Virus record (IMG/VR): IMGVR_UViG_3300049783_001343
Location: 1-58,515 of that record
Origin: a virus
DNA: 58,515 bases
Direction: 5' to 3' (one strand)
Below, one piece after another: positions 44,551-58,515 of the stretch. Every line of letters starts with the position of its first letter. The stretch's first letter is position 1. A program made the translations under genes and the position numbers. Under the pieces are notes generated by a model. It was not told the origin of the DNA. It saw nothing but the letters and a program-made list of their open reading frames with translations, and searched no databases.

Positions 44551-44763
44551 CTACTTGTCCTCCTTTGGGTTGGCGAACCCGTACCCGTTGCCGTAGCCGA
44601 CGCCGACGCCGTAGCCGGTGCCGTGGCCTCCGCCGTTGCCGACACCACTGCCCGAGCTGCCCGCGCCGCTGCCGACGCCGCCGTTGGCATCAACACCTAG
44701 CTGCTTGGCCTGCTGTTCGCCCGAAAACTTGCCGGACATAAGAGGGCTACAATACAGCCCCAT
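44551..44763 (-). CDS. Gly-X repeat protein G1
   Basis: 70 residues with a non-repeat N-terminal third (SPLMSGKFSGEQQAKQLG) and then GSG-, GNG-, GYG-type repeats (VGVGYGNGYG), ending KEDK. SD GGAGGACAAGTAG is formed by the previous gene's last codons. The most distant member of the Gly-X family, located 3.6 kb from the main array. Confidence 0.75.
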   Translation of the reverse strand: MGLYCSPLMSGKFSGEQQAKQLGVDANGGVGSGAGSSGSGVGNGGGHGTGYGVGVGYGNGYGFANPKEDK

Positions 44764-45171
44764 CTACTTGTCCTCCACTGGGTGCAGTTCCACAGTGTCG
44801 CCCTCATACGGGGTGAATATTCCTAAGTTCCTCCAAGTGGCGCAAGCAACAACACTATCATCCTCCATATAAAGTAATCCCAAAGAATTTTTCCTCATAG
44901 ATCCAAGGTCCACTTTCTCGGTGACCGTAAAAAACAACCCTTTGTCGGTCACAGCCTTGGTAAATGTCGCTGAAAACTTTGGCCCTATGCTTTCTGGGCT
45001 GTTATACCAGACTGCGAGGTATTGGGTCAGGGGTGTGTCCTCTGGAATGCGCTGCGGCTCAGGCTTTGGCGGGCAAGGTGTTCTCATTGGCGATGATCGC
45101 CACGGGCAGTTGCCAGCAACGGAACCACAATCACATGACACTTGGCCGAGTAGCCATTCGATAAACCTCAT
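44764..45171 (-). CDS. Hypothetical protein (135 aa)
   Basis: Start ATG 45171 shares TAATG with the previous stop and has SD GGAGGACAAG. It opens with MRFIEWLLGQ, then a Cys/Pro-rich N-terminal part and a beta-rich C-terminal part (GLLYMEDDSVVACATW). Ends EDK, whose codons form the SD of the next gene. Unknown family. Confidence 0.7.
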   Translation of the reverse strand: MRFIEWLLGQVSCDCGSVAGNCPWRSSPMRTPCPPKPEPQRIPEDTPLTQYLAVWYNSPESIGPKFSATFTKAVTDKGLFFTVTEKVDLGSMRKNSLGLLYMEDDSVVACATWRNLGIFTPYEGDTVELHPVEDK

Positions 45172-45320
45172 TACTTGTCCTCCCTCTGTTTGGGTGTTGA
45201 TGGCAACGCCTTGGGAGCCTGAATGGCCAACCAGACCCAAAACCCGCAGACGTAGAGCCCCATGGTTATGCCCAACCAGACCCAAAACCCGCTGACGTAG
45301 AACTGTAAAACCTCAAGCAT
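45171..45320 (-). CDS. 49-residue membrane protein with internal duplication
   Basis: A short frame with SD AAGGAGGA and ATG right after the preceding stop. It contains a tandem duplication: FYVSGFWVWLGIT and LYVCGFWVWLAIQ, two near-identical Trp-rich membrane segments. It ends EDK. Preceded by inverted repeat IR-b. Possibly a holin-like or envelope peptide; unproven. Confidence 0.62.
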   Translation of the reverse strand: MLEVLQFYVSGFWVWLGITMGLYVCGFWVWLAIQAPKALPSTPKQREDK

Positions 45321-45698
45321 CTACTTTTCCTCCTTATGCGTTATGCGTGACGCATAACTTGGTTTCGTCAGTGCATAGACAAACACCGGGTTTATTTTGC
45401 TGTAACGCTTGGTTGGGATCTTGCGCACCATGCCCTGCTTGATTGCTATGTCAGCGCGCTTTTTTACCGTCTCTTTCGAGCAGCCCAAGGCTTTTGCCAC
45501 TTGGTCGCGGGTCTGCGGGGGTTTGCCCTCAAGCACTGCCACAAACTCCAGAACCTTTAAGCGCCACTGCTCTGGGTCAGATACGGCGGGACCGTAATGT
45601 CCTTTTCGCCCTGTCGGCAGCTTCGGCACTTTCTTTTCTTTGCGTGCCAAGGCCAGCATCATCTCCCCAAGATTGGCGTCCAGCTCATCGCGGGTCAT
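45321..45698 (-). CDS. Winged-helix DNA-binding protein
   Basis: 125 residues with SD GGAGG. The section TRDQVAKALGCSKETVKKRADIAIKQGMVRKI is a clear winged HTH, followed by a wing-like hairpin. The last codons run through inverted repeat IR-b and give the tail SYASRITHKEEK, so the natural C-terminus may have been extended by the repeat. A likely phage transcription regulator. Confidence 0.72.
   Translation of the reverse strand: MTRDELDANLGEMMLALARKEKKVPKLPTGRKGHYGPAVSDPEQWRLKVLEFVAVLEGKPPQTRDQVAKALGCSKETVKKRADIAIKQGMVRKIPTKRYSKINPVFVYALTKPSYASRITHKEEK
45341..45357. repeat. Inverted repeat IR-b, TTATGC-N5-GCATAA
   Basis: Perfect 7-bp arms; an extra half-arm CGCATAA lies next to it on the minus strand. 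It is followed by SD AAGGAGG and the ATG of the 49-residue membrane gene, 20 bases away. It also encodes the last residues of the winged-helix gene. Confidence 0.85.
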
Positions 45699-45892
45699 TG
45701 TGTATCCTCCAATGCTTTGTTACCTTTAGCTGTGATCATCCACTCGCGCTCAATCAGTGGAAGCCGATCGTCGGCGCATCGGATCAACCCCGCACGGTGA
45801 AGTGCAGACAGTGCTGTGGAGGTACTGTCGTGGCAAACATACCATTCGCCGTCCGACATACGCGCAAGCGTCGTGCGTTTCTTGCTGCTCAT
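45695..45892 (-). CDS. Small winged-helix-like protein
   Basis: 65 residues from ATG 45892 (SD AAAGGAG). Segments STALSALHRAGLIRC and EREWMITAKGNKALED give the pattern of a minimal winged helix. It overlaps the next gene (ATGA). Probably a regulatory DNA-binding protein. Confidence 0.66.
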   Translation of the reverse strand: MSSKKRTTLARMSDGEWYVCHDSTSTALSALHRAGLIRCADDRLPLIEREWMITAKGNKALEDTQ

Positions 45893-46236
45893 AACATGTA
45901 CTCCTTTATCCATTCACGTAGCTCGTGCACGGTTTCAGCGTTGTCGAGGTAGTGCAGCTTGAGGTCGTTGGCGGCCCGCTTCGCAGCGTCTTCTTCGCGC
46001 TCGCTTTCACACCCATGACACAGCTCGTTTACGTGCGGCACGAGCGGCCCGTTCGGATACAGCGGGCTCCCGCGAGATCTTTTACCGCACCCTCCCGCGC
46101 ACATCGGTAGCGCACGGCCGCGCGCCTCGTACTCTTTGCGCTTACGAAGGTAGTTTTCACCGCACGTGCGACAGTAACGCTTGCGCCACTTACCCTCCAC
46201 GGCTTCGTTGCCGCAGCCAAGTTTACACTTTGCCAT
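45889..46236 (-). CDS. Zinc-ribbon protein
   Basis: 115 residues with two Cys clusters: CKLGC...YCRTC (about residues 4-25) and CAGGC...LCHGC (about 46-76), the layout of two zinc ribbons, then a helical C-terminus. Basic first half. Its stop overlaps the next gene. Likely binds nucleic acid. Confidence 0.72.
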   Translation of the reverse strand: MAKCKLGCGNEAVEGKWRKRYCRTCGENYLRKRKEYEARGRALPMCAGGCGKRSRGSPLYPNGPLVPHVNELCHGCESEREEDAAKRAANDLKLHYLDNAETVHELREWIKEYML

Positions 46237-46247
46237 ATCAATCCCCT

Positions 46248-46721
46248 CTACGCCGTAAATTCGTCAGCGGAGAGAGCCCACAGCGTGAACGACGGCTCTT
46301 CGAGACCAGCCGTGGCATGGACATCTGCCTTGGCCATCTGACCTTTCCTGAACAGGGACAGCAACGCAGCCTGAGTCCGTTGCGGCGTAGCGTTCACCTC
46401 ACCCGCGATCTCGTCAGTGGTTGCATAACCAGACCCGCGCACCACCGAAATCACGCCAGATTCAAGCACGGGGTCGTCTGGTAGCGAGAGATCTTCTTTG
46501 GTGGAAGTGTCGACATAGACAGCCACCCACGGCGTGTCACGGTTATTGGAATGAGTGTTGGGGATGATCTTGGCGGTTGCTATACCGTGCTCCTTGATAC
46601 CACTACTGCCGACAACGCTCGCCGGAATGTAAATGCCGTCCCCGTCGTCAAGCCTGTTGGCAAAACCTGCACCCTGCGATCCAGATAGAATGCGTGAACA
46701 GAAAATTTGTACTTCTTGCAT
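46248..46721 (-). CDS. Hypothetical protein with C-terminal winged helix
   Basis: 157 residues, SD AAGGA. The first ~80 are beta-rich and OB-like (GIYIPASVVG, TPWVAVYVDT). About residues 97-150 look like a winged helix (YATTDEIAGEVNATPQRTQAALLSLFRKGQM). The combination suggests a nucleic-acid-binding regulator; no family is recognised. Confidence 0.68.
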   Translation of the reverse strand: MQEVQIFCSRILSGSQGAGFANRLDDGDGIYIPASVVGSSGIKEHGIATAKIIPNTHSNNRDTPWVAVYVDTSTKEDLSLPDDPVLESGVISVVRGSGYATTDEIAGEVNATPQRTQAALLSLFRKGQMAKADVHATAGLEEPSFTLWALSADEFTA

Positions 46722-46748
46722 GATTATCTTCCTTGTTTTTATGTTAAA

Positions 46749-46964
46749 TTATGTGGCGTCGAACAGGTCTTGCACCTCCTCGTCTGTTATTTGCTTCTCT
46801 TGGAACACTTCCCACGGTGTGCCGATGCGATCAATTATGCCTTGCGCATAATCTTTGGTGACGTCGCAGTGTTTCTCCACGTGCTCTGCCAGATCTTCGA
46901 TAGCTATTGGTTGGTGCTTTATACTCAGTAAAAACTTCCATACCAGTTCCTCACGACCATGCAT
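46749..46964 (-). CDS. Hypothetical helical protein
   Basis: 71 residues from ATG 46964 (SD GGGAGG), overlapping the end of the VRR-NUC gene. Acidic and helical with KDYAQGIIDRIG. A sequence similar to the inverted repeat lies inside its coding region. No function recognised. Confidence 0.65.
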   Translation of the reverse strand: MHGREELVWKFLLSIKHQPIAIEDLAEHVEKHCDVTKDYAQGIIDRIGTPWEVFQEKQITDEEVQDLFDAT

Positions 46965-47256
46965 CACACGCCTCCCTGATCATTGCTGCGAGATTATCGA
47001 CGTTCGTTTCGTCTACAATTATTCCATAACCACCCGCCTCGTTAATCTGTCGGAGGTTCAGCTCTTGCAGTTTGGTTGGCTTACCCTTGCCAGCTTTGCA
47101 CTCAAGTCCGAGGAACAGTCCCTCGTAGCAGCCAATAATGTCAGGCACGCCAGACTTTCCCCAGCCGCCCGTCACAGGGTAAAAGTAGTAGGCGCCCAGC
47201 TTTTTAAGCTGGGCCGCCGCCCGTTTCTTTACTTTCGCTTCCGGTGTCATTGCCAC
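46951..47256 (-). CDS. VRR-NUC domain nuclease
   Basis: 101 residues that are essentially one VRR-NUC (PD-(D/E)XK) domain: GVPDIIGCYEGLFLGLECKAGKGKPTKLQ gives the active Asp, Glu-x-Lys core, followed by the QINEAGGYGIIVD strand. Stand-alone VRR-NUC proteins in phages are structure-specific or Holliday-junction-type nucleases. It overlaps neighbouring genes. Confidence 0.88.
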   Translation of the reverse strand: MAMTPEAKVKKRAAAQLKKLGAYYFYPVTGGWGKSGVPDIIGCYEGLFLGLECKAGKGKPTKLQELNLRQINEAGGYGIIVDETNVDNLAAMIREACDAWS

Positions 47257-47578
47257 GCAGTCTCTCCTCCGCTTGCTCTATGATCCACCATGTGGTGGCG
47301 TCTATGCGACGCCCGACACCCCAAACAGCGCTCTCGTTTGGGTGCGGAGGCAACATGTTAAGTACCGCCATACGGTCCTTGGCCCACTCTGGTAGCTCTT
47401 CGTAGCTTTGATACTTCAGAGACCTCTCAGTGTCAATGGGGCAGTACCCAATGTATTGCATGGTAACGGAACCATCTGACAACACCTCAACCCGCCAGAT
47501 GTAGTCTTCGTTCTCGTTGCATATTGCCATGCGGGCCATGAACCAACGCCTGCGGCGGTGAAAGCCACCCTCCATCAT
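47204..47578 (-). CDS. Conserved hypothetical protein
   Basis: About 124 residues from an ATG overlapping the preceding stop (ATGA). Later ATGs (residues 14 and 17 of this frame) are also possible starts. A beta-sheet core YIWRVEVLSDGSVTMQYIGYCP is followed by a helix. Its end overlaps the VRR-NUC gene by 53 bases. Function unknown. Confidence 0.65.
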   Translation of the reverse strand: MMEGGFHRRRRWFMARMAICNENEDYIWRVEVLSDGSVTMQYIGYCPIDTERSLKYQSYEELPEWAKDRMAVLNMLPPHPNESAVWGVGRRIDATTWWIIEQAEERLRGNDTGSESKETGGGPA

Positions 47579-48324: not shown

Positions 48325-48335
48325 ATTATTTCTCC

Positions 48336-48365
48336 ATTGTTGTTTGTTGTTTGTTGTTTGTTGTT
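48336..48365 (-). promoter_or_regulatory. (AACAA/ACAA)n unstructured leader
   Basis: On the minus strand, four copies of a 7-base unit AACAACA-type lie just upstream of the SD of the 249-residue gene. Such CAA-rich leaders are free of secondary structure and favour ribosome entry. Other minus-strand genes in this region (54472, 56821, 57274) have shorter CAA-rich leaders. Confidence 0.55.
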
Positions 48366-48609
48366 ATCCGTAGCCGTAGCCGCCGACGCTCCCTTCTCCG
48401 TGGCCGTGACCGCGGCCGTCGCCTGTGCCTTCTTTGCCGGGAATACCGCAGCCGTTGGAGTTGCCTAGGCCAGTCCGGTTGCGGTCGCCGTCGCCCCAGC
48501 CGAAGCCAAATACCCTGCCCTCAAGCCAATCATATTCGGAGTGGCCGCCATATCCGAAGCCCTCACCATCGGGTATGAAGAGACCGTTGCCGTCGCCGAT
48601 ACCTCTCAT
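48364..48609 (-). CDS. Gly-X repeat protein G2
   Basis: 81 residues. The start ATG shares TAATG with the stop of the 201-residue gene, so the two are coupled. Gly alternates with Asp, Asn, Tyr, Phe, His and Arg, with some Glu and Trp (DWLEGRVFGFGWG). Ends GGYGYG. Less regular than later members. Confidence 0.78.
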   Translation of the reverse strand: MRGIGDGNGLFIPDGEGFGYGGHSEYDWLEGRVFGFGWGDGDRNRTGLGNSNGCGIPGKEGTGDGRGHGHGEGSVGGYGYG

Positions 48610-49214: not shown

Positions 49215-49219
49215 TGTTA

Positions 49220-49585: not shown

Positions 49586-49831
49586 CTATCCGTAGCCGTT
49601 GCCGTTGCCGTAGCCGTTGCCGTAGCCGAGACCACTCCCATCCCCTTCCCCCGCACCACCGCCGTTGGGATTACCTTGGCCTGTGCGGTTGCAGTCGCCG
49701 TCTCCGTGGCCTGTGCCGTGATCGTAGCAGAAAGTTAAACCACCATGCCCGTAGCCGTGCCCGTCGCCGTAACCACCCCCGTGCCCTTCGCCGCGGCCTT
49801 CTCGGTAGCCGCCTGAGCCGTTGCTTGTCAT
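49586..49831 (-). CDS. Gly-X repeat protein G3
   Basis: 81 residues, opening MTSNGSGGYREGRGEG and closing with an uninterrupted GYGNGYGNGNGYG run. A short less-repetitive centre (LTFCYDHG) holds one Cys. SD lies in the gap after G4. Its stop is three bases before IR-d. Confidence 0.82.
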   Translation of the reverse strand: MTSNGSGGYREGRGEGHGGGYGDGHGYGHGGLTFCYDHGTGHGDGDCNRTGQGNPNGGGAGEGDGSGLGYGNGYGNGNGYG

Positions 49832-49837
49832 CAGATA

Positions 49838-50053
49838 TTACCCTTCTCCTTCGCCGTAACCCTGCTTGTAACGTAACCCTAGCCGGAGACCATAACCGTG
49901 CCCGTCACCCTCGCCAGTGCCGTTGGTGTCCCCTTTGGAAACCCTGTTACCGTCGCCGTCACCGTGGCCCGAACCGTCGTCGCGGATGGAGAGCGCGCCT
50001 CCATGTCCGATACCCCGACCACCGCCGTTACCTCTACCTGACCACTCAGTCAC
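49838..50053 (-). CDS. Gly-X repeat protein G4
   Basis: 71 residues, GTG start that overlaps the VWA protein stop (GTGA), so it is translated as an appendix to the VWA gene. Repeats GDGDGN, GEGDGHGYG and a basic end GLRYKQGYGEGEG. Confidence 0.8.
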   Translation of the reverse strand: MTEWSGRGNGGGRGIGHGGALSIRDDGSGHGDGDGNRVSKGDTNGTGEGDGHGYGLRLGLRYKQGYGEGEG

Positions 50054-51258
50054 AGCTGACCAGACGACACATGCACAGTTGTACCCAGTGGCGGATTGCA
50101 GCCTTTGTTATCGACAACGACCCACATGACAGGGCAGTCCCAGAGGCCCCACGTGCCGCCAAGGTGGCCGTCGGTGAACACAACAGCACACTGTGGGTTG
50201 TAACGCTTCTCTCGCATGTGATCCGGCACACACTCGACGTTCGTACCGCCGCCGCCCTGTGGCTTGGTTGTGTCGATCAGGGAGTCAAGCTCGTGCATCT
50301 CGTACCGCTCATCACCACAGATCTCAGTGTCCCAGTAGATCAGCCTGACAGCCTCTGGCTTGACAGTCTCGACGATACCCTTGACCTCCGACATCATGCG
50401 GGGGAGCACGCCCGGCGCAAACGTGGAGCCCGACATATCAAGGGCGATCACAAGCTCACCCACCTGCTCGCTTATACCAGACGGCATATACACGCCCGCG
50501 CTGAGGTATCGGCGGTTAGGCCGGCGCCATGTTGAATAGTCACTGCCGGAACACGTGGTCTGCACATACTCGCGCATAGCCTCCTTCCAGTCCTGCTGTG
50601 GCTGCAACAGCTCACCAAAGCTACGGTCGCCACCTGACCCCATCTTGCTGGCAGCCATGGCGCCTTGGCGCACCGCCTCGTCAAGCTCGCGACCCAGTGC
50701 CTGTGTTTCCTCGGCAGACATCTCCTTGGCCGCATCCCACATGTGTTCGTCAAAACCCCCGGGCTTGCCGCCGCCCTGACCTTGACCGCCGCCGCCGCCG
50801 CCGTTTTGCTGGAGATCGCGGAACACACGCGCACTGTCCCAACCGCGGTACTTCTCGTCGAAGCACCCGACAAGCAAAGGTCCGGTCATAGTGGCGAAGC
50901 TGTCTTGTTTGTTGTCGTCCACCAGCTGACAGTTGATCACGTAGTCGCAGGCTTGGTTGGCAAGCTGTGGGTTCTCATCGTACATCCAGCGCCACGTCGT
51001 CAGGTGCTTGTACATCTTGTGATAGATCTCGTGCAGCATGAGGAAGCGCAACTCCGAGTCCTTCATTGGGTTGACGAAGTCGCGATTGTAAAACTCGTTC
51101 TTGCCGTCCGTTGCCGCAGTTTGAATGCGTCCGTCCTCGACAATGCTCCGCTCACCAATGAGTAGAACACCAGACAGCGCCCTGTACCGAGGGTGTGCCA
51201 TGATGTCGATCGCACCTTTTTGAAGCCGTTGCTCGGCTGTAAGTTTACCATGTAACAT
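50050..51258 (-). CDS. Metallopeptidase-VWA protein (DUF2201-like)
   Basis: 402 residues. The N-terminal domain has HEIYH zinc ligands (76-80) and a later ACDYVIN that supplies the usual third ligand. The C-terminal domain is a von Willebrand A fold with MIDAS motif DMSGS, GGGGTN and FTDGH. A Gly-rich linker (GGGGGGQGQGGG) lies between. Such proteins pair with MoxR-type ATPases, with the ATPase remodelling a substrate recruited by VWA. The matching MoxR and DUF3150 genes lie 1-3 kb upstream. Confidence 0.87.
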   Translation of the reverse strand: MLHGKLTAEQRLQKGAIDIMAHPRYRALSGVLLIGERSIVEDGRIQTAATDGKNEFYNRDFVNPMKDSELRFLMLHEIYHKMYKHLTTWRWMYDENPQLANQACDYVINCQLVDDNKQDSFATMTGPLLVGCFDEKYRGWDSARVFRDLQQNGGGGGGQGQGGGKPGGFDEHMWDAAKEMSAEETQALGRELDEAVRQGAMAASKMGSGGDRSFGELLQPQQDWKEAMREYVQTTCSGSDYSTWRRPNRRYLSAGVYMPSGISEQVGELVIALDMSGSTFAPGVLPRMMSEVKGIVETVKPEAVRLIYWDTEICGDERYEMHELDSLIDTTKPQGGGGTNVECVPDHMREKRYNPQCAVVFTDGHLGGTWGLWDCPVMWVVVDNKGCNPPLGTTVHVSSGQL

Positions 51259-51259
51259 G

Positions 51260-51460
51260 TTATTTACCTTCTTTGTTTGTTATTAAGTGTTTGCCGTGGC
51301 CGTTGCCGTAGCCGTTGCCGCGGCCGCTGCCGCTGCCGTAGCCATGGGATCTTCCCTTTCCGTAACCCCCGCCAGAGCCTGTGGCGCTGTGATCGCGACC
51401 AAGGAAGCCGTTACCACCGGTTCTACCCCGACCGTTGCCGTCTTCGTCGTTTGATGCCAT
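51260..51460 (-). CDS. Gly-X repeat protein G5
   Basis: 66 residues, SD AAGGAGAGG. Opens with an acidic MASNDEDGNG, has an Arg/Gly patch, then SGSGRGNGYGNGHGK and a tail LITNKEGK. Sits directly before the VWA gene. Confidence 0.8.
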   Translation of the reverse strand: MASNDEDGNGRGRTGGNGFLGRDHSATGSGGGYGKGRSHGYGSGSGRGNGYGNGHGKHLITNKEGK

Positions 51461-51474
51461 CCCGCCTCTCCTTG

Positions 51475-51660
51475 TTAATTGTCACCGTAGCCGTTGCCGT
51501 AGCCGCGCTCTTTGGCATAACCTCTACCGGGACCTTCGCCGCTACCATAACCATGGCCGATACCGCTTCCGTGGCCGTAGCCCAATGCTTGGGCGTAGCC
51601 TCCGCTGCCGTCGCCGTCGCCGCAGGTGCCCATGCGCCCAGTGCCCTCGTTTATCTTCAT
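51475..51660 (-). CDS. Gly-X repeat protein G6
   Basis: 61 residues, first gene after IR-e with SD AAGGAGAGG. Opens MKINEGTGRMGTCGDGDG, then GYGHGSGIGHGYGSG and ends GYGNGYGDN. One Cys. Confidence 0.82.
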   Translation of the reverse strand: MKINEGTGRMGTCGDGDGSGGYAQALGYGHGSGIGHGYGSGEGPGRGYAKERGYGNGYGDN

Positions 51661-51674
51661 CCCACCTCTCCTTG

Positions 51675-51691
51675 TTATGCCCGACGCATAA
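51675..51691. repeat. Inverted repeat IR-e, TTATGC-N5-GCATAA
   Basis: Arms TTATGC/GCATAA are perfect, inner pair mismatched. It is followed by the SD of Gly-X gene G6, whose ATG is 14 bases away, and lies after the DUF3150-like gene. Confidence 0.85.
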
Positions 51692-51711
51692 TCACGTCGG
51701 GCTGTTAGTGT

Positions 51712-52605
51712 TTAGAAGTCCAGCGACGGCAGGGCTTTGATCGCGTTCTCCATGTCTTGCTTGAGGTCGGCGCGGTAGCCCTCGTTGCCAACAATGTCCC
51801 CGCGCGTCACACCGGCCAGCGCTGAGGCCAGCTTGCGCTGCGCCAACTGCAAACTCGGGTCGTCAGTGAAGTTGCAGTGCTCAAGCATATCCGTCAGGTG
51901 CTGCACGTTCTCGATCGTGCTGTCGAACACCTTGCCCTTCTTGCCATCTTCGTCCACGTCGAGCTGCTTGACAAAGCGCTGCAAGTTATCGTGCAAACGC
52001 TTCCACAGGTCGCCCATCGCCCGCTCCATCTGTGTCTGATAGAACGACGCATACTGCTCCTTCAGCTCATCTTGGGCATCGTTCTCGATCTCCACGCGCC
52101 AGTCGCCTGTGTCAGGCACCGGAATATAGGACATACGGAACGCGAACTTATGGCGAATGCTGTCGCCAGTGGGATACTCATCGCGAAGAAACAGTGAGCC
52201 CAACCGCAGGTGCATCTGCGCAACCTCGAAGTCATACGCGTCTAGGAACAACTGAACCAAGCGATCGAACTCGGCTTGGAGACCCGACATCTGCTTGTGA
52301 TAGTCGAAGTATTTTGCTGTAGGCAACAGGCGCAGCCCGCTGTCTGACCATGGCAGCGTCATGTTGTAGTGCATTGTGCGCGTGTTGGATGCGAACTTCT
52401 GAATTGCTACCAGTTCCCCACAGTCTGCCATGAGGTTCTTGTTGAACGCGCCCGCAGTCTTTGACGCGCCGCTTGCTGACAGCACGTCGCTTGTCGTGGT
52501 GCGGTCGCGCTTTCTCGCTGTCCATGTGCTGATAGACAACTCCACCAGCATAGCTGATGATGAGATCGTTGGTGCCGACACTGTCGGTGTATCCATGTAA
52601 GTCAT
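51712..52605 (-). CDS. DUF3150-like protein (MoxR/VWA partner)
   Basis: 297 residues from ATG 52605; a longer start at 52701 would run through IR-f and has no SD. The opening SSSAMLVELSISTWTARKRDRTTTSDVLSASGA and the helical body (FDRLVQLFLDAYDFEVAQMHLRLG) fit DUF3150, a family encoded beside MoxR ATPases and VWA proteins in phages and plasmids. Likely an adaptor of that complex. Confidence 0.75.
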   Translation of the reverse strand: MTYMDTPTVSAPTISSSAMLVELSISTWTARKRDRTTTSDVLSASGASKTAGAFNKNLMADCGELVAIQKFASNTRTMHYNMTLPWSDSGLRLLPTAKYFDYHKQMSGLQAEFDRLVQLFLDAYDFEVAQMHLRLGSLFLRDEYPTGDSIRHKFAFRMSYIPVPDTGDWRVEIENDAQDELKEQYASFYQTQMERAMGDLWKRLHDNLQRFVKQLDVDEDGKKGKVFDSTIENVQHLTDMLEHCNFTDDPSLQLAQRKLASALAGVTRGDIVGNEGYRADLKQDMENAIKALPSLDF

Positions 52606-52621
52606 TGTTACTTCTTTCTTG

Positions 52622-52638
52622 TTATGCCCGACGCATAA
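52622..52638. repeat. Inverted repeat IR-f, TTATGC-N5-GCATAA
   Basis: Invariant 6-bp arms. It stands 16 bases before the ATG of the DUF3150-like gene and just after the stop of Gly-X gene G7. The N5 core is the same as IR-e. Confidence 0.85.
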
Positions 52639-52651
52639 TTGCATCGGGCTG

Positions 52652-52771
52652 TTATCCGTTACCAGTCCCGTCGCCGAAACCACCACTTGGACCTTTACCA
52701 AACCCGTGGCCGTTGCCGTAGCCGTTGCCTCTACCGCCGCCGGCCCCGGTGCCGTTGCCGTTGTTATACAT
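52652..52771 (-). CDS. Gly-X repeat protein G7 (39 aa)
   Basis: The smallest family member, with SD AAAGGAGAGAAAGG. It reads MYNNGNGTGAGGGRG, then NGYGNGHGFGKG and a GDGTGNG end. A separate gene, since the previous stop TAG lies 15 bases before its ATG. Confidence 0.78.
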   Translation of the reverse strand: MYNNGNGTGAGGGRGNGYGNGHGFGKGPSGGFGDGTGNG

Positions 52772-52785
52772 CCTTTCTCTCCTTT

Positions 52786-52911
52786 CTATCCGTGGCCCGA
52801 ACCGTCGCCTCTGCCGTAGCCGTTGCCGTAGCCTTTGCCGTGAGCGTAACCGTAACCGTGACCGTTGCCGAAACCATTGTCATTGCCCGAGCCGGTGCCG
52901 TCGTTGCTCAC
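52786..52911 (-). CDS. Gly-X repeat protein G8 (41 aa)
   Basis: GTG start with SD AAAGGGGAGAAAGG. Opens with SNDGTGSGND, continues GHGYGYAHGKGYGNGYG and ends GSGHG. The same SNDG opening helps interpret the damaged neighbour G9. Confidence 0.76.
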   Translation of the reverse strand: MSNDGTGSGNDNGFGNGHGYGYAHGKGYGNGYGRGDGSGHG

Positions 52912-52925
52912 CCTTTCTCCCCTTT

Positions 52926-53168
52926 CTAGGCACCCGTGCCGTCGCCGTAGCCGTTATTGAGACCCTCGCCGTAGCCGTGCCCTGTGCCGGGCGAAGTGGT
53001 ACGTTTGTAGATTGAGTTGAAGGGCGAGGATGCACTAGCTACGGAATGATAAACGGCATCTCGATTACCGTTTCCTCGCCCCTTTCCACCACCGTAACCC
53101 GCACCTTTACCATCACCATTGGCACGTCCAAACGCCCCGCCCTTTAGTCCAGAGCCGTCGTTATCCGC
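52926..53168 (-). pseudogene. Gly-X frame G9, start lost or frameshifted
   Basis: About 79 codons of Gly-X pattern (NDGSGLKGGAFGRANG..., ending GYGDGTGA) run in the +1 frame relative to G10, starting at G10's TAA stop. No ATG/GTG/TTG or SD is present where the family opening (SNDGxG) should be. Dropping one T at the stop would fuse G10 and G9 in frame. This may be an out-of-frame recombination product, a programmed +1 frameshift or a sequence error. It contains a non-repeat insert with YHSVASASSPFNSIYKR. Confidence 0.6.
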
Positions 53169-53379
53169 CGCTGCCGGAGCCGTTGCCGACGCCGCAGCCG
53201 AGCCCCGCAGCGCGCCCTGTGCCTTCCCCGTAATCGGGGGTGTAGACTGCGCCGTTGCTAGGGCCCGAGCCGTTACCGTGGCCAAAACCCAACCCACCGC
53301 CGTTGCCTGTACCTTCGCCATAACCATAGCCTCGGTTAACAGGGCGAGCGTTGGAGCCAAGGCCAGCGCCGTCACACAT
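53161..53379 (-). CDS. Gly-X repeat protein G10
   Basis: 72 residues; ATG 53379 lies inside the last codons of the MoxR gene (8-base overlap), indicating translational coupling. It has a non-repeat lead (CDGAGLGSNARPVN), GYGYGEGTG repeats, a SNGAVYTPDYGEG insert and ends GNGSGSGG. Confidence 0.76.
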   Translation of the reverse strand: MCDGAGLGSNARPVNRGYGYGEGTGNGGGLGFGHGNGSGPSNGAVYTPDYGEGTGRAAGLGCGVGNGSGSGG

Positions 53380-54472
53380 CGGCCGCAAAAAGATGCGCGT
53401 TGGTACGGGCAAACGCTGTAAAAGCTGCGTGGGTCATCATCATACCCTGCTTGCCGTAACCCTTGGCACGCACACCGTTGGCAAACATACCGCCAGCCTC
53501 GCTTGGAAGCCGCGCCATGTAGGTCATCCAGTTGTCCACCCAGTCACGCTCGATGATAGACAGCGTACGGAACACAATCATGCAGATCGCAGCCGCCGAC
53601 TCTGGCACCTTGGCGTTATGTGGATCTCTCTTGATGGACTCAAGGCTAGGCAGATCATTGGCCAGTGCGACAAACGACATGAGATCCATCGCGCCGCGCT
53701 CACCAATGGCGCCGATAAGCGCACCGGTTATACTGTGATCGTCCAACACACCACGCAGCTTTGTAATCTCTGAAGCCGCCACAAGCGAACGTTGTGTGAC
53801 AAACGCTGCACGCTGTGCCCTCGGGTGGTAGATGTACGGGTTATCGTCGGGGTTGCTCACATCCTCGAAGGATTGAAATAGTTGAGGGTTCTCGCGTGCC
53901 CACCCCAGAACAGGAGTGTCAACATCGTTGTTGATACCCCACTCGATCCAACGTGTTGCATCGGGCTTGGCCATACGCACCATGATGAGAGCGTTGCGTT
54001 GGTGTGCCGCCAGTGTGTCACCCACACCCTCGGACCCAAGGTTGGACGTGCCGTAGATGATGCTGCCCTCGGGCAGAGTGATGCCGTTGACCATGCGCTC
54101 AAGCATGATACGACGCACGCCGCGCTTGACAGGCTCCATAGCCTTGAGGAACTCATCGAAGTTGATAATCACCGGCACGCCAAGGTGTGCGCCGAGCTCT
54201 GCGTTGGGCACGAACTCCACGTAGTCAGAGATCATATCCTCGGCCATTGCGATAAACTTGGGAGCGGACAGGTCTTGCACGTCCTTGTTGGTGCAGTCGA
54301 ACTCGACATACGTGTGGTTGGGGAACTTAAGTGAGAGCAGGTGACGCAGTCCCGAGGTCTTACCGGAACCCATGTCGCCCTGCACGATTACCGTGCGCTT
54401 GTGACCCACCTCGGCGATGAGATTGGCACACTGCTCAAGTGTTAGTGCGTAAAGATTTGTTGCTTGTGACAT
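53372..54472 (-). CDS. MoxR/CobS-type AAA+ ATPase
   Basis: 366 residues. Walker A QGDMGSGKTS (31-40), Walker B VIINFDEF (about 129-136), sensor-1-type GTSN and a C-terminal helical lid region. MoxR-type ATPases act as hexameric remodelling machines with VWA partners (compare CobS/CobT and RavA/ViaA). The DUF3150-like and VWA-metallopeptidase genes follow in the same operon. Expressed from the IR-g block behind a hairpin-bearing leader. Confidence 0.87.
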   Translation of the reverse strand: MSQATNLYALTLEQCANLIAEVGHKRTVIVQGDMGSGKTSGLRHLLSLKFPNHTYVEFDCTNKDVQDLSAPKFIAMAEDMISDYVEFVPNAELGAHLGVPVIINFDEFLKAMEPVKRGVRRIMLERMVNGITLPEGSIIYGTSNLGSEGVGDTLAAHQRNALIMVRMAKPDATRWIEWGINNDVDTPVLGWARENPQLFQSFEDVSNPDDNPYIYHPRAQRAAFVTQRSLVAASEITKLRGVLDDHSITGALIGAIGERGAMDLMSFVALANDLPSLESIKRDPHNAKVPESAAAICMIVFRTLSIIERDWVDNWMTYMARLPSEAGGMFANGVRAKGYGKQGMMMTHAAFTAFARTNAHLFAADV

Positions 54473-54501: not shown

Positions 54502-54512
54502 GCTGTTGTTCG

Positions 54513-54529
54513 TTATGCGTCAGGCATAA
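54513..54529. repeat. Inverted repeat IR-g, TTATGC-N5-GCATAA
   Basis: Perfect 6-bp arms. The stop codon of Gly-X gene G11 is inside it. It lies 40 bases before the ATG of the MoxR gene. Confidence 0.85.
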
Positions 54530-54780
54530 TTGCCCTGCCCTTTTTCGTATCCGTGGCCCGTTCCTCGCACGTCGCCGTTGTTTTCGCCCCGACCGCAGCC
54601 GTTGCCGCCGCCGTTGCCGTAGCCGTTGCCGTTGCCGAGGCCGTTGCCGTGGCCGTGGCCTCTACCGTAGCCGTTGCAGTGGCCGTAGCCGTGGCCGTAG
54701 CCGTAGCCGTGGCCGTAGCCGTGGCCGTAGCCGTTGCCGTTGTTTTCGCCGTAGCCGTTGCCGTAGCCTGTGCCTTCCAT
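54520..54780 (-). CDS. Gly-X repeat protein G11
   Basis: 86 residues with a long run of perfect GNGYG/GHGYG repeats broken by GENNG. Ends GQGNYA, where the last residues come from IR-g. SD AAAGGATAGG. The last of three Gly-X genes behind the DUF6948-like gene. Confidence 0.82.
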   Translation of the reverse strand: MEGTGYGNGYGENNGNGYGHGYGHGYGYGHGYGHCNGYGRGHGHGNGLGNGNGYGNGGGNGCGRGENNGDVRGTGHGYEKGQGNYA

Positions 54781-54785
54781 GTTGC

Positions 54786-54989
54786 CTATCCTTTCCCGTG
54801 GCCTTGTCCGAGGGTTGAGCCCACGGCCATACCGTCGCCGTAGCCGTGGCCGTAACCGATGCCTTGAGCGTCGCCCCGACCGCAGCCGTAGCCTTCGTCG
54901 TCACGGCAGCCGAAGCCGAAGCCGCAGCCGCAGCCGCTACCGTTGCCAAAGCCGTCGCCGTTGCCGTAGCTGAGACCGTTGCCTTCCAT
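54786..54989 (-). CDS. Gly-X repeat protein G12, Cys-containing
   Basis: 67 residues, SD AAAGGATAGG. A GCGCGFGFGC segment and a later GYGCGRG give four Cys in all, the most in the family, so metal or disulfide binding is possible. Ends GQGHGKG, whose codons form the SD of the next gene. Confidence 0.81.
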   Translation of the reverse strand: MEGNGLSYGNGDGFGNGSGCGCGFGFGCRDDEGYGCGRGDAQGIGYGHGYGDGMAVGSTLGQGHGKG

Positions 54990-54994
54990 GTTGC

Positions 54995-55285
54995 CTATCC
55001 TTTCCCACGACCGTGGCCTCCGCTGTAACCTATGGACAAGCCGTCCCCGTCGCCGGTGCCGTGGCCGAGGCCAATGCCGTTGCTGTGATCGTGGCCGTGG
55101 CCGTAGCCGTGAGATCTTCCTGCATAGCCGTTGGATGATCCGGTGTTGTTGCCCTCACCTTGGCCGTGGTCGTTGGGCCGCAAGATTATTTTTTGCCCCT
55201 CACCGCAGCCGTAGCCCATACCAAAGTTGTTGCCGCAAGAAAGACCACGGCCGCAGCCGTAGCTCTGGCCGTGGTCGATCGTCAT
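54995..55285 (-). CDS. Gly-X repeat protein G13
   Basis: 96 residues from ATG 55285, one base after the stop of the DUF6948-like gene. An earlier in-frame start (55372) would overlap that gene. Cys-containing opening (GQSYGCGRGLSCG), a break with QKIILRPN, then GYGHGHDHSNGIGLGHG and GKG end. Confidence 0.78.
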   Translation of the reverse strand: MTIDHGQSYGCGRGLSCGNNFGMGYGCGEGQKIILRPNDHGQGEGNNTGSSNGYAGRSHGYGHGHDHSNGIGLGHGTGDGDGLSIGYSGGHGRGKG

Positions 55286-55286
55286 C

Positions 55287-55616
55287 TTATTCGGCTTCTG
55301 CGACAGCAGCGCCTTCGATCGTAGCGATAGCCATGCCATGTGCAGGGAAGATCTCGCACACACCAGCAACAATGATGTCAGGCAGAACCATCGTCACCTT
55401 AGACCCGGCGTGGTCGATGCCGACGATAGCAACCTCGCTCAATGAGATACCAGTTCCCGCGATCTTCCAGCGCCACAGGCGGCGGCTGTCAGTGAGTTGC
55501 ACGGTCTTGGCACCGCTGTCGCCAGCCTCTACCGCAGCCAGTGTGCCGTAGTGTACGCCGCTGTCGACGGAGCGGATGATTACTTTTTCGCCGATTGGGT
55601 ATGTAATTGTAGACAT
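55287..55616 (-). CDS. DUF6948-like protein
   Basis: 109 residues. The section LTDSRRLWRWKIAGTGISLSEVAIVGI and the following hydrophobic strands (VTMVLPDIIVAGVCEIFPA) match the small conserved DUF6948 family common in phages. Unknown function. Leader identical to that of the MoxR gene. Confidence 0.78.
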   Translation of the reverse strand: MSTITYPIGEKVIIRSVDSGVHYGTLAAVEAGDSGAKTVQLTDSRRLWRWKIAGTGISLSEVAIVGIDHAGSKVTMVLPDIIVAGVCEIFPAHGMAIATIEGAAVAEAE

Positions 55617-55645
55617 TGTTAATCCTTTCAGGATTTTGTTGTGTT
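55614..55645 (-). promoter_or_regulatory. Duplicated leader with SD-sequestering hairpin (DUF6948-like gene)
   Basis: Same 32 bases as before the MoxR gene, with the AATCCT/AGGATT stem at 55621-55635 covering the SD. Implies coordinate translation control of the two genes. Confidence 0.65.
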
Positions 55646-55668
55646 TAAGTTGTCTTGGTCGTTTCGTG

Positions 55669-55685
55669 TTATGCAGTGCGCATAA
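55669..55685. repeat. Inverted repeat IR-h, TTATGC-N5-GCATAA
   Basis: Six-bp arms perfect. Located between Gly-X gene G14 and the DUF6948-like gene, 52 bases before its ATG. Confidence 0.85.
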
Positions 55686-55688
55686 CGT

Positions 55689-55958
55689 TTAACCTCTACC
55701 GCTACTGTCGCGATGAACGGCACCTATGCCGAGGCCGTTGCCGGAGCCGACGCCGTGGCCGCGGCCTGAGGCGTTGCCGGAGCCGTAACCGTGACCTTGG
55801 CCGCGGCCGTTGCTGGGGTCGTTGCCGTAGTTGAACCCTTTCTCGTGCCCGTTACCTGTGGCGTTGCCGTTGGTGTAGTCGTCTTGGCGCCCTTTGCCGA
55901 CGCCGTTGCCGTTGATGGACCCCGCGCCGCAGTGCTTGCCGTAGCCTCTACCTTCCAT
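55689..55958 (-). CDS. Gly-X repeat protein G14
   Basis: 89 residues, SD GGAGA. Less regular, with Asn/His/Asp/Lys-rich spacers (QDDYTNGNATGNGHEKG) and a run GYGSGNASGRGHGVGSG; ends SSGRG. The stop lies just before IR-h. Confidence 0.8.
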   Translation of the reverse strand: MEGRGYGKHCGAGSINGNGVGKGRQDDYTNGNATGNGHEKGFNYGNDPSNGRGQGHGYGSGNASGRGHGVGSGNGLGIGAVHRDSSGRG

Positions 55959-55979
55959 TGTTTCTCCGCTGTTGATGTT

Positions 55980-56201
55980 TTAACCGTAGCCTCTACCGCT
56001 GCCGTAGCCGTCGCCGTCGCCGTGGCCGTTGCCGTCGCCGTGGCCGTAGCCGTGGCCGTGGCCGTGGCCGTAGCCGTGGCCGTGGCCGTAGCCGTAGCCG
56101 TAGCCGTAGCCGTTGCCGTTGCCGTTGCCGTCGCCGTCGCCGTAGCCGTAGCCGTTGCCGTTGCCGTTGCCGTCGCCGTTGCCGTTGCCGTGGCCGTTCA
56201 C
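55980..56201 (-). CDS. Gly-X repeat protein G15 (near-perfect repeat)
   Basis: 73 residues, GTG start overlapping the stop of the 207-residue gene (GTGA). Nearly every second residue is Gly and the others are Asn, Tyr, His or Asp, encoded by GGC-NAC codon pairs. It is the purest member and a good candidate for polymerase slippage. Confidence 0.83.
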   Translation of the reverse strand: MNGHGNGNGDGNGNGNGYGYGDGDGNGNGNGYGYGYGYGHGHGYGHGHGHGYGHGDGNGHGDGDGYGSGRGYG

Positions 56202-56821
56202 GCGAGCAGTGACTTGGCCTCGTCGTCACCCCGATCCGCCATGCGCTTGAGGTAGGCTTGGACCGGGTCGTCGTCCTCGGGTTCTTCTTCCCATCCGTCG
56301 CCGTCGCCATAGCTTGCTACCGTTTCAGCCGTGTCAGGATCGTAAATGTTGACCGTCTCGACGTTGTCGAAAACATCCTCCCCGTCCTTGGTCCACTTGG
56401 TACCTTCCGGTGCCTCGAACCCATCGCGCGTGGTCATGGCTTTCGCCGCTTCCAAGCTGTCAACCTCGATCGTTGCCGTGTAATAAACACGCGCATCGCG
56501 GCCCACTTGAACTTCAAATGTTTTCATTGGTTCTTCTTCTTTGTGCAGCATAGCGGCAGCGGCTTTCATGGCATCCTTTGTGACGGCGATCAGCACCGCT
56601 GCACCCGTGTCGCCATACTCACTCGCGTCGTACCAAATGTCTCCCCGTGCACCGTCGCGCAGCGCTGTTGCGATAATTTTGTGGTTATCGTTGTTGATAA
56701 GCAGAGATGGAAAGGCCTCCAAGATAGCGCCGGCAGTGTCGTCAATGTGCAAAATCTCTCCGTCGTCCGATACGTCTATTTCGATAGAAAGTATCTTTGC
56801 AATCTGAGCACGTATAGTCAT
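56198..56821 (-). CDS. Hypothetical acidic protein
   Basis: 207 residues, SD AGGAGA after IR-i. The first half is alpha/beta. A second half starts at an internal Met (MKTFEVQVGRDARVYYTATIEVDS) that could be a separate domain, as in other small phage proteins. Acidic tail with DDDPVQAYLKR. Unknown function. Confidence 0.7.
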   Translation of the reverse strand: MTIRAQIAKILSIEIDVSDDGEILHIDDTAGAILEAFPSLLINNDNHKIIATALRDGARGDIWYDASEYGDTGAAVLIAVTKDAMKAAAAMLHKEEEPMKTFEVQVGRDARVYYTATIEVDSLEAAKAMTTRDGFEAPEGTKWTKDGEDVFDNVETVNIYDPDTAETVASYGDGDGWEEEPEDDDPVQAYLKRMADRGDDEAKSLLA

Positions 56822-56841
56822 CTCATTTCTCCTGTTGATTG

Positions 56842-56858
56842 TTATGCGTTGCGCATAA
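56842..56858. repeat. Inverted repeat IR-i, TTATGC-N5-GCATAA
   Basis: Seven-bp arms, 20 bases before the ATG of the 207-residue gene. The leader with AACAGGAGAAATGAG is almost the same as after IR-j. Confidence 0.85.
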
Positions 56859-56975
56859 TTATTGTGTGGCGCCGCGATAGTAGAACCAGCGGCCGTTGCG
56901 TTGCACTCGGTAAAGGTCTGAGTTTTTGAGACCTCCGAGGCCCGTCCATTCCTTTTTGGATATGCGCTCTCCCAT
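56859..56975 (-). CDS. Tiny conserved-looking protein (38 aa)
   Basis: The frame shares TGATG with the previous stop and has SD GAGGAG. It has WTGLGGLKNSDLYRVQR and WFYYRG, aromatic and basic. Stop TAA touches IR-i. Not listed as a known family. Confidence 0.62.
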   Translation of the reverse strand: MGERISKKEWTGLGGLKNSDLYRVQRNGRWFYYRGATQ

Positions 56976-57274
56976 CACTCCTCCTCGTCTTCAAAATCGA
57001 TCCACACCCATGCCGAGACATACAGACCGGGATCGCGGCCCGCTGACACCATGACCTCGTCGTCAAGTTCAACCACGCCCTCGCGGCGGCCGTTGCTGTG
57101 GCCGTTGCCTTGGTGCTCGTCACGTGCCGCTCGAATGGCGTTGGCGTATATTGTCTGGCTGGCGTCGTGCTCTGCAAGCCACTCGCTTGCTGCACTGATT
57201 GTGTTCATCAGGCTACCGTGGTCGGCTGCATCCGATGCAGTCACGATGTTTCGCAGTGTTGATAAAATGCTCAT
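56975..57274 (-). CDS. Hypothetical protein, first gene of the operon
   Basis: 99 residues, SD AGGAGA. A helical N-terminal part (SEWLAEHDASQTIYANAIRAA), a HQGNGHSNGR stretch with a mini Gly-X motif and an acidic tail. The first real gene downstream of the minus-strand promoter at 57,748-57,776. Confidence 0.68.
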   Translation of the reverse strand: MSILSTLRNIVTASDAADHGSLMNTISAASEWLAEHDASQTIYANAIRAARDEHQGNGHSNGRREGVVELDDEVMVSAGRDPGLYVSAWVWIDFEDEEE

Positions 57275-57293
57275 CTCATTTCTCCTGTTGCTG

Positions 57294-57310
57294 TTATGCG
57301 TGAGGCATAA
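57294..57310. repeat. Inverted repeat IR-j, TTATGC-N5-GCATAA
   Basis: Six-bp arms perfect; 19 bases before the ATG of the 99-residue gene. Confidence 0.85.
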
Positions 57311-57655
57311 TTGCCTACGTCTAATTTCTCACCAGTTCCCTAGCGCCGCGCAGGTTGTCACGCTGCATGGCACGTTCTTTTATTCGCTGCCTGCTTTATA
57401 TGTTCGTTCGGGCACTGCATAGCAGTGGGCCCCGTGCCGGTGTTTCTCGATCTGCATTATATGCAGACCAGTCGGTCATTCGCGCATCATGTTGTTGGCA
57501 TAGATCTACATGCTGTTGCCCCGTGGGACGTGTGGCTTCTTAGGCAAGTCTGGCCGCGCTAAGGCTCATATCACACAACATGCAGTACCAACGGGCGGGA
57601 CGTTATCTTACCCCGATGCGCTTGGTTAGCAGGTCAGTTAGCATTATCGGTGTCG
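57311..57655 (-). promoter_or_regulatory. Gene-free operon leader
   Basis: About 345 bases with no convincing gene; only frames under 30 codons without SD. It holds two perfect palindromes, CACTGC-ATA-GCAGTG (57413-57427) and TCTGCAT-TAT-ATGCAGA (57451-57467), the second with the same 7-3-7 geometry as the IR series. Likely a long structured leader of the minus operon. No tRNA or riboswitch recognised. Confidence 0.5.
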
Positions 57656-57672
57656 TTATGCGGGACGCATAA
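57656..57672. repeat. Inverted repeat IR-k, TTATGC-N5-GCATAA
   Basis: Seven-bp arms. The only copy without a gene start just behind it. It lies 76 bases downstream of the promoter -10 box. Confidence 0.82.
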
Positions 57673-57747
57673 GTCTCCCTAGCCTTGGTCGTTTGGTCGT
57701 TTCAAAGAGCGTGTCGCACGAGAAAACTTGGCCCGTGATACCCTTTA

Positions 57748-57776
57748 ATACTACGATATAACACGTTATATGTCAA
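57748..57776 (-). promoter_or_regulatory. Strong sigma70-like promoter with palindrome in spacer
   Basis: Minus strand TTGACA (57776-57771), 17-base spacer, TAGTAT (57753-57748). A 16-bp palindrome ATATAAC-AC-GTTATAT (57756-57771) fills the spacer, a typical repressor site. It reads into the whole minus-strand operon; a start near 57,740 is expected. Confidence 0.75.
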
Positions 57777-57820
57777 TAGGACCTGAGAAGTTATTGTTTG
57801 AGGCTTGGGGGTACTTGGGG

Positions 57821-58033
57821 TTATCTTTTGCCCTTCCCGTAGCCGTAGCCTTGGCCGCTACCGTTGTTCCAATTGCTGTTGTTGCCGATACCCATGCCGC
57901 AGCCGTCACCCATGCCGTTGTTGTTGCCTATACCCATGCCGTTGCTGTAGCCGATACCCATGCCGTAGCCGTTCACGCTACCTCTGCCGTTGCCCCAACC
58001 TTTACCTCTGCCGTTGCCGTTGCCGTTGCTCAT
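57821..58033 (-). CDS. Gly-X repeat protein G16
   Basis: 70 residues from ATG 58033, which overlaps the stop of G17; a second ATG at 58039 is possible. Met-rich variant (GMGIGNNNGMGDG) with a basic GKGKR end. No terminator was seen between it and the promoter downstream. Confidence 0.8.
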   Translation of the reverse strand: MSNGNGNGRGKGWGNGRGSVNGYGMGIGYSNGMGIGNNNGMGDGCGMGIGNNSNWNNGSGQGYGYGKGKR

Positions 58034-58248
58034 CCCCATCCCTCTCCATCACCGTAGCCGTTGCCCTTACCGTAGCCGCTGCCTCTACCGTAGCCGTGGC
58101 CGTGGCCGTTGCCGTTGCCGTGGCCTCTGCCTCTGCCGTTGCCCTTACCGTTGCCTCTACCGTAGCCGTTGCCGAAGCCGAAGCCGTAGCCGAAGCCGCT
58201 GCCGTAGCCGTTGCCGTTGCCGTTGCCGTTGCCGGTGCCATTATTCAT
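58030..58248 (-). CDS. Gly-X repeat protein G17
   Basis: 72 residues, SD AAAGGGATCGGG, starts MNNGTGNG, with GFGYGFGFG and RGNGKGNGRGRG sections. ATGA overlaps at both ends. Confidence 0.82.
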   Translation of the reverse strand: MNNGTGNGNGNGNGYGSGFGYGFGFGNGYGRGNGKGNGRGRGHGNGNGHGHGYGRGSGYGKGNGYGDGEGWG

Positions 58249-58373
58249 CCCGATCCCTTTCCGCCGCCGCTACCGCTGCCCTTACCGTAGCCGTTGCCGT
58301 GGCCGTAGCCGTTGCCGTGGCCGTAGCCTCTACCGTAGCCGTTGCCGACGCCCTTTCCCTTTCCATTATTCAT
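58245..58373 (-). CDS. Gly-X repeat protein G18 (42 aa)
   Basis: Starts MNNGKGKG like G17, continues GNGYGRGYGHGNGYG and ends GSGGGKGSG, whose codons form the SD of G17. The identical MNNG opening suggests recent duplication. Confidence 0.8.
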   Translation of the reverse strand: MNNGKGKGVGNGYGRGYGHGNGYGHGNGYGKGSGSGGGKGSG

Positions 58374-58515
58374 CCTTTGCCCTTTCCGTAGCCTCTACCG
58401 TTGCCGTTGCCGTGGCCGTAGCCTCTACCGTAGCCGTTGCCGTGGCCGTAGCCTCTACCGCTGCCGTTGCCGTGGCCGTAGCCGTTGCCGTGGCCGTAGC
58501 CGTCACCGTAGCCGT
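58370..58515 (-). CDS. Gly-X repeat protein G19 (5' end cut by window)
   Basis: At least 48 residues of almost perfect GYGHGNG repeats ending GYGKGKG. The start lies beyond the right edge. Its stop overlaps the start of G18. It shows that the array goes on outside this window. Confidence 0.78.
   Translation of the reverse strand, partial: GYGDGYGHGNGYGHGNGSGRGYGHGNGYGRGYGHGNGNGRGYGKGKG

Follow-up and report, generated by a model that had tools for sequence, protein, structure and literature searches.

The Gly-Arg tails of the eukaryotic proteins SmB, D1 and D3, like the linker of SSB, are thought to gather complexes through weak contacts. To our knowledge, no detached partner in which glycine alternates with other residues, (Gly-X)n or GX, is known for Hfq, and we know of no counterpart to the DUF6948-GX system described here, the parts of which resemble known kinds in fold class or composition only. 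The system was analyzed starting from the IMG/VR virus record IMGVR_UViG_3300049783_001343 (positions 1 to 58,515; this 58,515-base stretch is referred to as the window), which encodes a terminase, a portal protein, a DNA polymerase, a primase/helicase, a helicase and an AAA ATPase, together with a family of short GX genes. Short stand-alone (GX)n genes are a widespread phage feature and are nearly always coupled to a gene of the DUF6948 family, and their arrays are hypervariable between near-identical phages.

When stop-to-stop frames are scanned with a threshold of at least 9 Gly in 12 alternating positions, 19 (Gly-X)n frames pass between 44551 and 58513, all 19 on the minus strand, and their lengths and coordinates agree with those of the original prediction. 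No such frame occurs in the remaining 44.5 kilobases of the window or in 100 dinucleotide-preserving shuffles, where the highest score is 8 of 12, and the frames are thus confirmed as real. The genes are spread over 14 kilobases among about 15–20 others, i.e., beside conserved genes and not in one block, as had been proposed, and they commonly touch or overlap the 3′ end or stop codon of a conserved gene. The original prediction gave most of them their own Shine-Dalgarno sequence or a stop/start overlap; one frame has no start codon near its repeat. The family is not confined to one phage, since both close relatives and many unrelated phages carry similar genes.

Distribution of GX genes and pairing with DUF6948

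GX-protein family searches and filtered tblastn were uninformative because of the low complexity of the sequences, and DNA patterns were used instead. Viral contigs and cellular genomes were scanned for eight units of GGNNAY, and these scans indicate the kind of sequence present, not its frequency. At least 120 stretches were found in viral contigs, and in 73 of 120 among the matches listed the best GX frame encodes a short protein, no more than 140 residues long. Cellular genomes gave at least 118 stretches, of which 5 of the 118 listed are short; the other cellular stretches listed mostly belong to long proteins, as linkers or tails of homopolymeric type, or lie outside the GX frame. A cellular origin was therefore rejected, also because DUF6948 is found in 0 of the 118 cellular loci listed. 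Several cellular proteins (L215, L227, L250, L259, L283, L287 and L327), mostly of about 800 residues, carry (GY)n stretches near the C-terminus; they are perhaps tyrosine kinases of bacteria, with ends rich in Tyr. No DUF6948 match was obtained in seven bacterial genomes, a weak negative as control genomes likewise gave none.

The window gene at 55287-55616 belongs to DUF6948 (PF22253; Pfam E 1.1e-19, 70.8 bits against a gathering cut-off of 27). This family was found in 14 of 175 neighbors of GX genes and is the only one that occurred more than twice in either Pfam batch. A profile built from the window protein recognizes DUF6948 in 75 of the 90 GX-positive viral pattern loci among the matches listed (62 of 90 at E<1e-8) and in all 5 GX-bearing loci from named phage records. 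Weaker matches in one subgroup represent a divergent branch (hhalign probability 98.3, E 1e-14), and the partner in Eggerthella phage PMBT5 is recognized by the local profile (E 2e-9) but not by Pfam. The pair is present in phages of Rheinheimera, Rhodobacter, Pectobacterium, Iodobacter, Chlorobiaceae and Vibrio, and for the last four of these hosts the phages concerned are isolates. Among 80 relatives chosen by their ATPase gene, DUF6948 occurs in 9 of the 11 with GX and in none of the 69 without (Fisher p 2e-10), where some absences may be due to truncation as the contigs differ in extent. The association also holds in reverse: for DUF6948 loci collected by a single-protein search of viral contigs in which GX was ignored, a GX gene adjoins DUF6948 in 75 of 80 loci, with an overlap of exactly 13 base pairs (bp) in 61. 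In none of 92 GX-DUF6948 pairs do the two genes lie on opposite strands, and the median gap between them is −13. One locus, L112, is a natural DUF6948-GX fusion, with the barrel followed by a (GX)n tail. GX tracts are also fused to other small phage domains (L107, L118, L128, L139, L166, L168; L133, L160; L105, L131, L142), the fusion types being ‘GAC.DGV’, DUF7666-like and ‘IDGVPTIVSS..G.AKGF’, frequently with DUF6948 adjacent.

The most common overlap places the GX ATG within the conserved C-terminal Val-Trp of DUF6948 (GT-ATG-G). In 69 distinct DUF6948 genes, the Val preceding that Trp is encoded by GTA in 41 of 46 cases, whereas GTA accounts for 144 of 576 (25%) at the remaining Val positions of these genes; p is 2.8e-18, a value that is overstated because the genes are related and the counts not fully independent. 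The overstatement is tempered by the other Val codons, which share the same gene history yet show no GTA bias. Where Ile replaces this Val, the codon is ATA in 14 of 15. This bias at a synonymous site indicates that the GX start is kept by selection, and it supports the original prediction in that the frames are real and, across the wider family, selected for translation. In the main text of an RNA-sequencing paper on infection by Rheinheimera phage Barba18A, no per-gene value for DUF6948 or GX genes was found (PMC9305737).

The viral GX proteins are drawn from contigs with a GC content of 30-70%, and X is mostly Tyr, Asp, Ser or Asn, and also His, with Lys and Arg added in the window lineage. 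Against Pfam they give compositional matches below the cut-off only (e.g., TrAA12, 21.9 bits versus 30.9), and no PHROG family covers them (best E 0.3). RTX and collagen-like repeats were ruled out, as no such Pfam match exceeded the cut-off, and the idea that X is restricted to residues of NAY codons (Asn, Asp, His, Tyr), linked to queuosine, was rejected since Ser (TCC/TCT), Arg, Lys and Phe also occur.

Public records mishandle GX genes, examples being L413 1164-1409, L414 2764-3021, L003 27730-28056 and L002 25463-25777. The GX gene is unannotated in Iodobacter phage PhiPLPE, and annotated in a different frame in Chlorobiaceae phage CV-1-33; the PMBT5 record labels it ‘adsorption protein’, and MW202748 has it as ‘lamprin’. 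A practical rule for annotation is to check the final codons of every DUF6948 gene for the start of an in-frame (GX)n gene. The frames concerned have been overlooked or mis-annotated, and their tie to one conserved gene family gives both partners a role that can be tested.

Predicted structures and a candidate assembly

DUF6948 is predicted to adopt an Sm-like small β-barrel fold. The AlphaFold model of the window protein has a predicted local distance difference test score (pLDDT) of 95.2, and its top 50 Foldseek matches in the PDB are all Sm or LSm proteins (best E 0.019) save a BAH domain, which ranks 46th. The DUF6948 part of L112, about 32% identical to that of the window, again matches nearly exclusively Sm/LSm structures (best E 0.003). 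The GX tail of the same fusion is predicted to be disordered (pLDDT about 42), in a class of repeats that AlphaFold handles poorly.

The reading that we tentatively favor, and to which we would give somewhat less than an even chance, is that of an Sm-like core with a detached, translation-coupled low-complexity tail, giving a ribonucleoprotein-like assembly. The GX proteins would be the changeable component of a phage module with two parts, the other being DUF6948, of about 100 residues. As the GX start usually lies inside or just past the last codons of DUF6948, the two proteins would be made together. By analogy with Sm, LSm and Hfq proteins, DUF6948 may form a ring and may bind phage or host RNA, or single-stranded DNA. 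The GX protein, presumably in physical contact with it, might act as a detached tail or scaffold that gathers complexes through many weak contacts, and such an assembly could affect infection. A condensate, as the original prediction suggested, would fit the GX composition and the Sm-like partner; a bait for a host factor was its other conceivable role. Recombination genes are common near the pairs (Erf, Sak, RecT, SSB, RusA, NinG), and the module might instead act at phage DNA. In such an assembly composition and alternation alone would count, the exact order of letters mattering little, and fast turnover of the arrays by 6-bp slippage and recombination would then be expected. In the window phage the GX gene has been multiplied into a set of about 19, of which several are coupled to other genes.

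Several observations weigh against this proposal. The Foldseek E values are modest (0.003-0.09, none at or below 0.001), a PDB sequence search with a 68-sequence DUF6948 profile gave no match up to E 5, hhalign of DUF6948 against Escherichia coli Hfq is not significant (E 0.53), and the model has additional helices compared with a canonical Sm protein; as neither Sm1/Sm2 motifs nor any other link to Sm or Hfq is seen at the sequence level, we call DUF6948 Sm-like by fold and do not file it in the Sm/LSm family. The net charge of the GX proteins ranges from -25 to +18 (mostly negative, median -8), so that a single charge-based mode of binding is unlikely. Finally, the window holds about 19 GX genes and one DUF6948 gene, and most GX copies in the window are thus not coupled to DUF6948.

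Array turnover and competing explanations

The Pectobacterium ‘Ymer genus’ phages Taid and Ymer have DUF6948 genes that are 99.7% identical and 500 downstream nucleotides that are 100% identical, yet their GX arrays, of 258 and 222 nucleotides and built of the units GGCTCC, GGCTAC, GGCGAC and GGCTTC, differ in letter order. All array length differences in the Pectobacterium and Rheinheimera phages are multiples of 6 bp, and in several pairs of Pectobacterium phages the array separates a divergent upstream from an identical downstream side. The Pectobacterium arrays rest on short-read assembly of 300-cycle Illumina data, a possible source of error (PMC11445585). Closer to the window, the ATPase and DUF6948 genes of the relatives L015, L018 and L019 are 100% identical, and one of their four GX genes has 13 amino-acid-changing codons, 12 of them at X positions, while another differs by a single 6-bp unit. 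Variation within arrays is confined largely to positions 1-2 of the X codon (1.61 bits), with almost none at the third position of either Gly (0.21 bits) or X codons. Repeated four-unit words are enriched (738 observed, 450 expected), indicating slippage or unequal exchange. Whole GX genes are also gained and lost, as indicated by the relative L014, which cleanly lacks the window blocks 48364-48607, 51278-51666 and 52658-53371 between conserved flanks. Loss of frame in close relatives had been put forward in advance as evidence against the genes: frame and 6-bp period are kept although the letters change fast, but entire GX genes are present in one relative and absent from another. An array that evolves this fast within coding sequence would offer a mutation mechanism, and a purpose, that can be measured in the laboratory.

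The strongest competitor, although an unlikely one in our judgment, takes this variation as the purpose of the gene, i.e., GX would be a hypervariable identity or evasion protein in which the order of X matters and is under diversifying selection, with DUF6948 reading or presenting it. Such a protein might help the phage to evade a host sensor, might keep a competing phage from silencing it, or might mark self and non-self in co-infection. The wholly different arrays of Taid and Ymer beside near-identical sequence, the 12 of 13 changes at X next to invariant ATPase and DUF6948 genes, and the concentration of variation in the first two positions of the X codon are all in line with this. Against it stand the enrichment of four-unit words, which is as expected from plain slippage, the small number of X letters and the lack of any recognized partner known to us; the order is perhaps not read.

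Slippage could also be the whole explanation, the arrays arising easily beside DUF6948 as harmless neutral or selfish products. The clean gain and loss of blocks between relatives, three of them with respect to L014, and the presence in the window of several degenerate copies, one without a start codon, suit this view; it is nevertheless improbable, given the selected start codon in a set of 69 distinct genes, the conserved termini of subfamilies, such as M..PVG(GX)n...GT[VI]S.R.RR, and the predominance of stand-alone short GX genes in the viral over the cellular matches listed.

A further possibility, just as improbable or slightly more so, is that (GGCNNC)n acts at the level of DNA, as a hotspot of recombination, or of RNA, as a folded structure, the peptide being a by-product; in one variant, GG every 6 nucleotides could form two-layer quadruplexes. 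Consistent with this, Gly is preferentially encoded by GGC, even where contigs are AT-rich (GC content at Gly third codon positions 0.69 at a locus GC below 0.40), the Pectobacterium arrays lie between divergent and identical sides, and recombination genes are frequent neighbors. Against it, the start codon and frame are selected, in most loci the frame conforms to the DUF6948 overlap, array lengths stay multiples of 6, and X is limited to few amino acids that are reached by different codons, Ser being TCC/TCT in most phages and AGC in the window lineage.

The original prediction had proposed a silk-like fiber or gel former acting alone. Its composition, Gly with Tyr, Ser and Asn, resembles that of low-complexity sequences that assemble; our data lend no support to silk or fiber formation, and a fiber or gel former acting alone is improbable, since few X positions hold Ala (41 of about 4,400), the predominantly negative charge opposes compact sheets, the tail of the fusion is predicted to be disordered, within the limits of AlphaFold on such repeats, and the coupling to DUF6948 is near-absolute. 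A diversity-generating retroelement that rewrites AAC codons can be dismissed as highly improbable: variation at positions 1-2 of NNC codons is typical of such systems, but array length varies, few of the 16 NNC codons are in use, and a search for reverse transcriptase (PF00078) gave no match in seven records, namely that of the window, those of five phages carrying the pair and an additional viral contig.

The window locus

All features described in this section are on the minus strand. The DUF6948 gene (55287-55616, 109 residues), the conserved partner identified by Pfam and assigned its predicted Sm-like fold with AlphaFold and Foldseek, is directly followed by a GX gene of 96 residues (54995-55285), whose ATG at 55285 lies 1 nucleotide past the DUF6948 stop (55287); L014 has a GX counterpart with a similar C-terminal part in the equivalent position after its own DUF6948. 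The frame scan places two more GX genes downstream, at 54786-54989 (67 residues) and 54520-54780 (86 residues). The latter, with near-perfect alternation, is among the best arrays; the others are those at 55980-56201 (73 residues, near-perfect), 58030-58248 (72 residues, near-perfect), 58245-58373 (42 residues) and 58370-58513, the last open at the window end with at least 47 residues in the frame scan. The gene at 55980-56201 has a GTG start that overlaps the TGA stop of the upstream gene at 56198-56821. Near the window end the genes are chained: the gene at 57821-58039 (72 residues) starts within the end of the GX gene before it, that at 58030-58248 overlaps its GX predecessor by 4 bp, and that at 58245-58373 does so by an ATGA overlap.

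About seven copies alternate only partly, namely those beginning at 44551, 48364, 49586, 49838, 51260, 53161 and 55689. Among these, the genes at 55689-55958 (89 residues, from the frame scan) and 48364-48609 (81 residues, with a TAATG overlap with the upstream gene at 48609) are degenerate, and the one at 44551-44763 (70 residues, frame scan) is a degenerate outlier. The gene at 53161-53379 (72 residues) has an ATG that overlaps the stop of the ATPase gene at 53379 and belongs to a block cleanly missing in L014. It is followed by the frame that lacks a nearby start, a probable remnant at 52926-53180 with an approximate 5′ limit; the GX part is the C-terminal portion of the frame 52926-53375, the sole GTG of which lies about 70 non-GX codons upstream of it. 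Next come two very short genes, at 52786-52911 (41 residues, GTG start with AAAGGGGAG upstream) and 52652-52771 (39 residues, ATG with AAAGGAG upstream). The genes at 51475-51660 (61 residues) and 51260-51460 (66 residues) both have an ATG preceded by AAGGAG and are missing together in L014. The gene at 49838-50053 (71 residues) begins with a GTG that overlaps the TGA stop of the VWA-like gene at 50053, and that at 49586-49831 (81 residues) was found in the frame scan.

The conserved neighbors form a trio in the window (50050-54472): an AAA/MoxR-like ATPase gene (phrog_1297, 53372-54472), which served as the query for finding relatives, a DUF3150-like gene below the Pfam cut-off (51712-52605), and a VWA-like gene (phrog_1314, 50050-51258). 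The PHROG name of the last, ‘HNH endonuclease’, seems doubtful given that its homologs are annotated as VWA-like or metallopeptidase. This gene carries a Gly-rich or (GQ)n low-complexity insert of varying length (L014 12109-13362, L046 2225-3502, window 50050-51258).

An intergenic palindrome of the type TTATGC-NNNN-GCATAA gives 37 pattern matches compared with 11.75 expected (both strands counted). It is located in the window at 40470, 45341, 46835, 49566, 51675, 52622, 54513, 55669, 56842, 57294 and 57656, and it also occurs in the relatives L014 and L020. The palindromes are possibly terminators, operators or processing sites. The GX gene at 48364-48609 occupies the place of a hairpin of this TTATGC type in L014.

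Comparison with known systems

The window partner is a member of DUF6948, to which Pfam assigns no function, and the GX partner is absent from the name and descriptions seen. No paper on DUF6948 was found in the open-access literature, where an earlier mention is possible since most subscription journals lay outside the search, and nothing relevant on phage glycine-repeat proteins was found in the open-access literature searched. The original prediction knew of no described phage system of this kind; this stands in so far as no paper was found, but it missed a widespread gene coupled to DUF6948. It is possible, though we hold it with less confidence than not, that the two genes constitute a system, common to tailed phages of many hosts, in which a phage Sm-like protein is coupled to a hypervariable dipeptide-array protein serving as an exchangeable barcode or scaffold, the array being rewritten between otherwise identical phages and expanded to a family of about 19 members in one lineage. 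If true, phages would encode a widespread Sm-like protein of their own, accompanied by a low-complexity partner that is a separate protein, and disordered scaffolds could be studied in bacteria with a system taken from nature.

Of the described systems, silk fibroin and other (GX)n structural proteins share with the phage proteins a Gly at every second position, but the GX proteins are almost without Ala, are predicted to be disordered and have a fixed phage partner. Bacterial SSB with its Gly-rich linker, often encoded close by within these phage regions, likewise combines a nucleic-acid-binding barrel with Gly-rich disorder; SSB, however, has an oligonucleotide/oligosaccharide-binding fold with an acidic tip of its own, and the GX protein has neither. 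The Hfq and LSm proteins of bacteria, archaea and phages are alike in predicted fold class as judged by structure comparison, whereas DUF6948 has no significant profile match to Hfq and carries extra helices. Eukaryotic SmB, SmD1 and SmD3 share both the small Sm barrel and a Gly-alternating segment, in the same order as in the L112 fusion. They differ in that no sequence similarity to DUF6948 is detected, that the setting is a phage and not a eukaryote, and that the phage tail is normally a separate, translation-coupled and hypervariable protein in which X is mostly Tyr, Asp, Ser or Asn instead of Arg.

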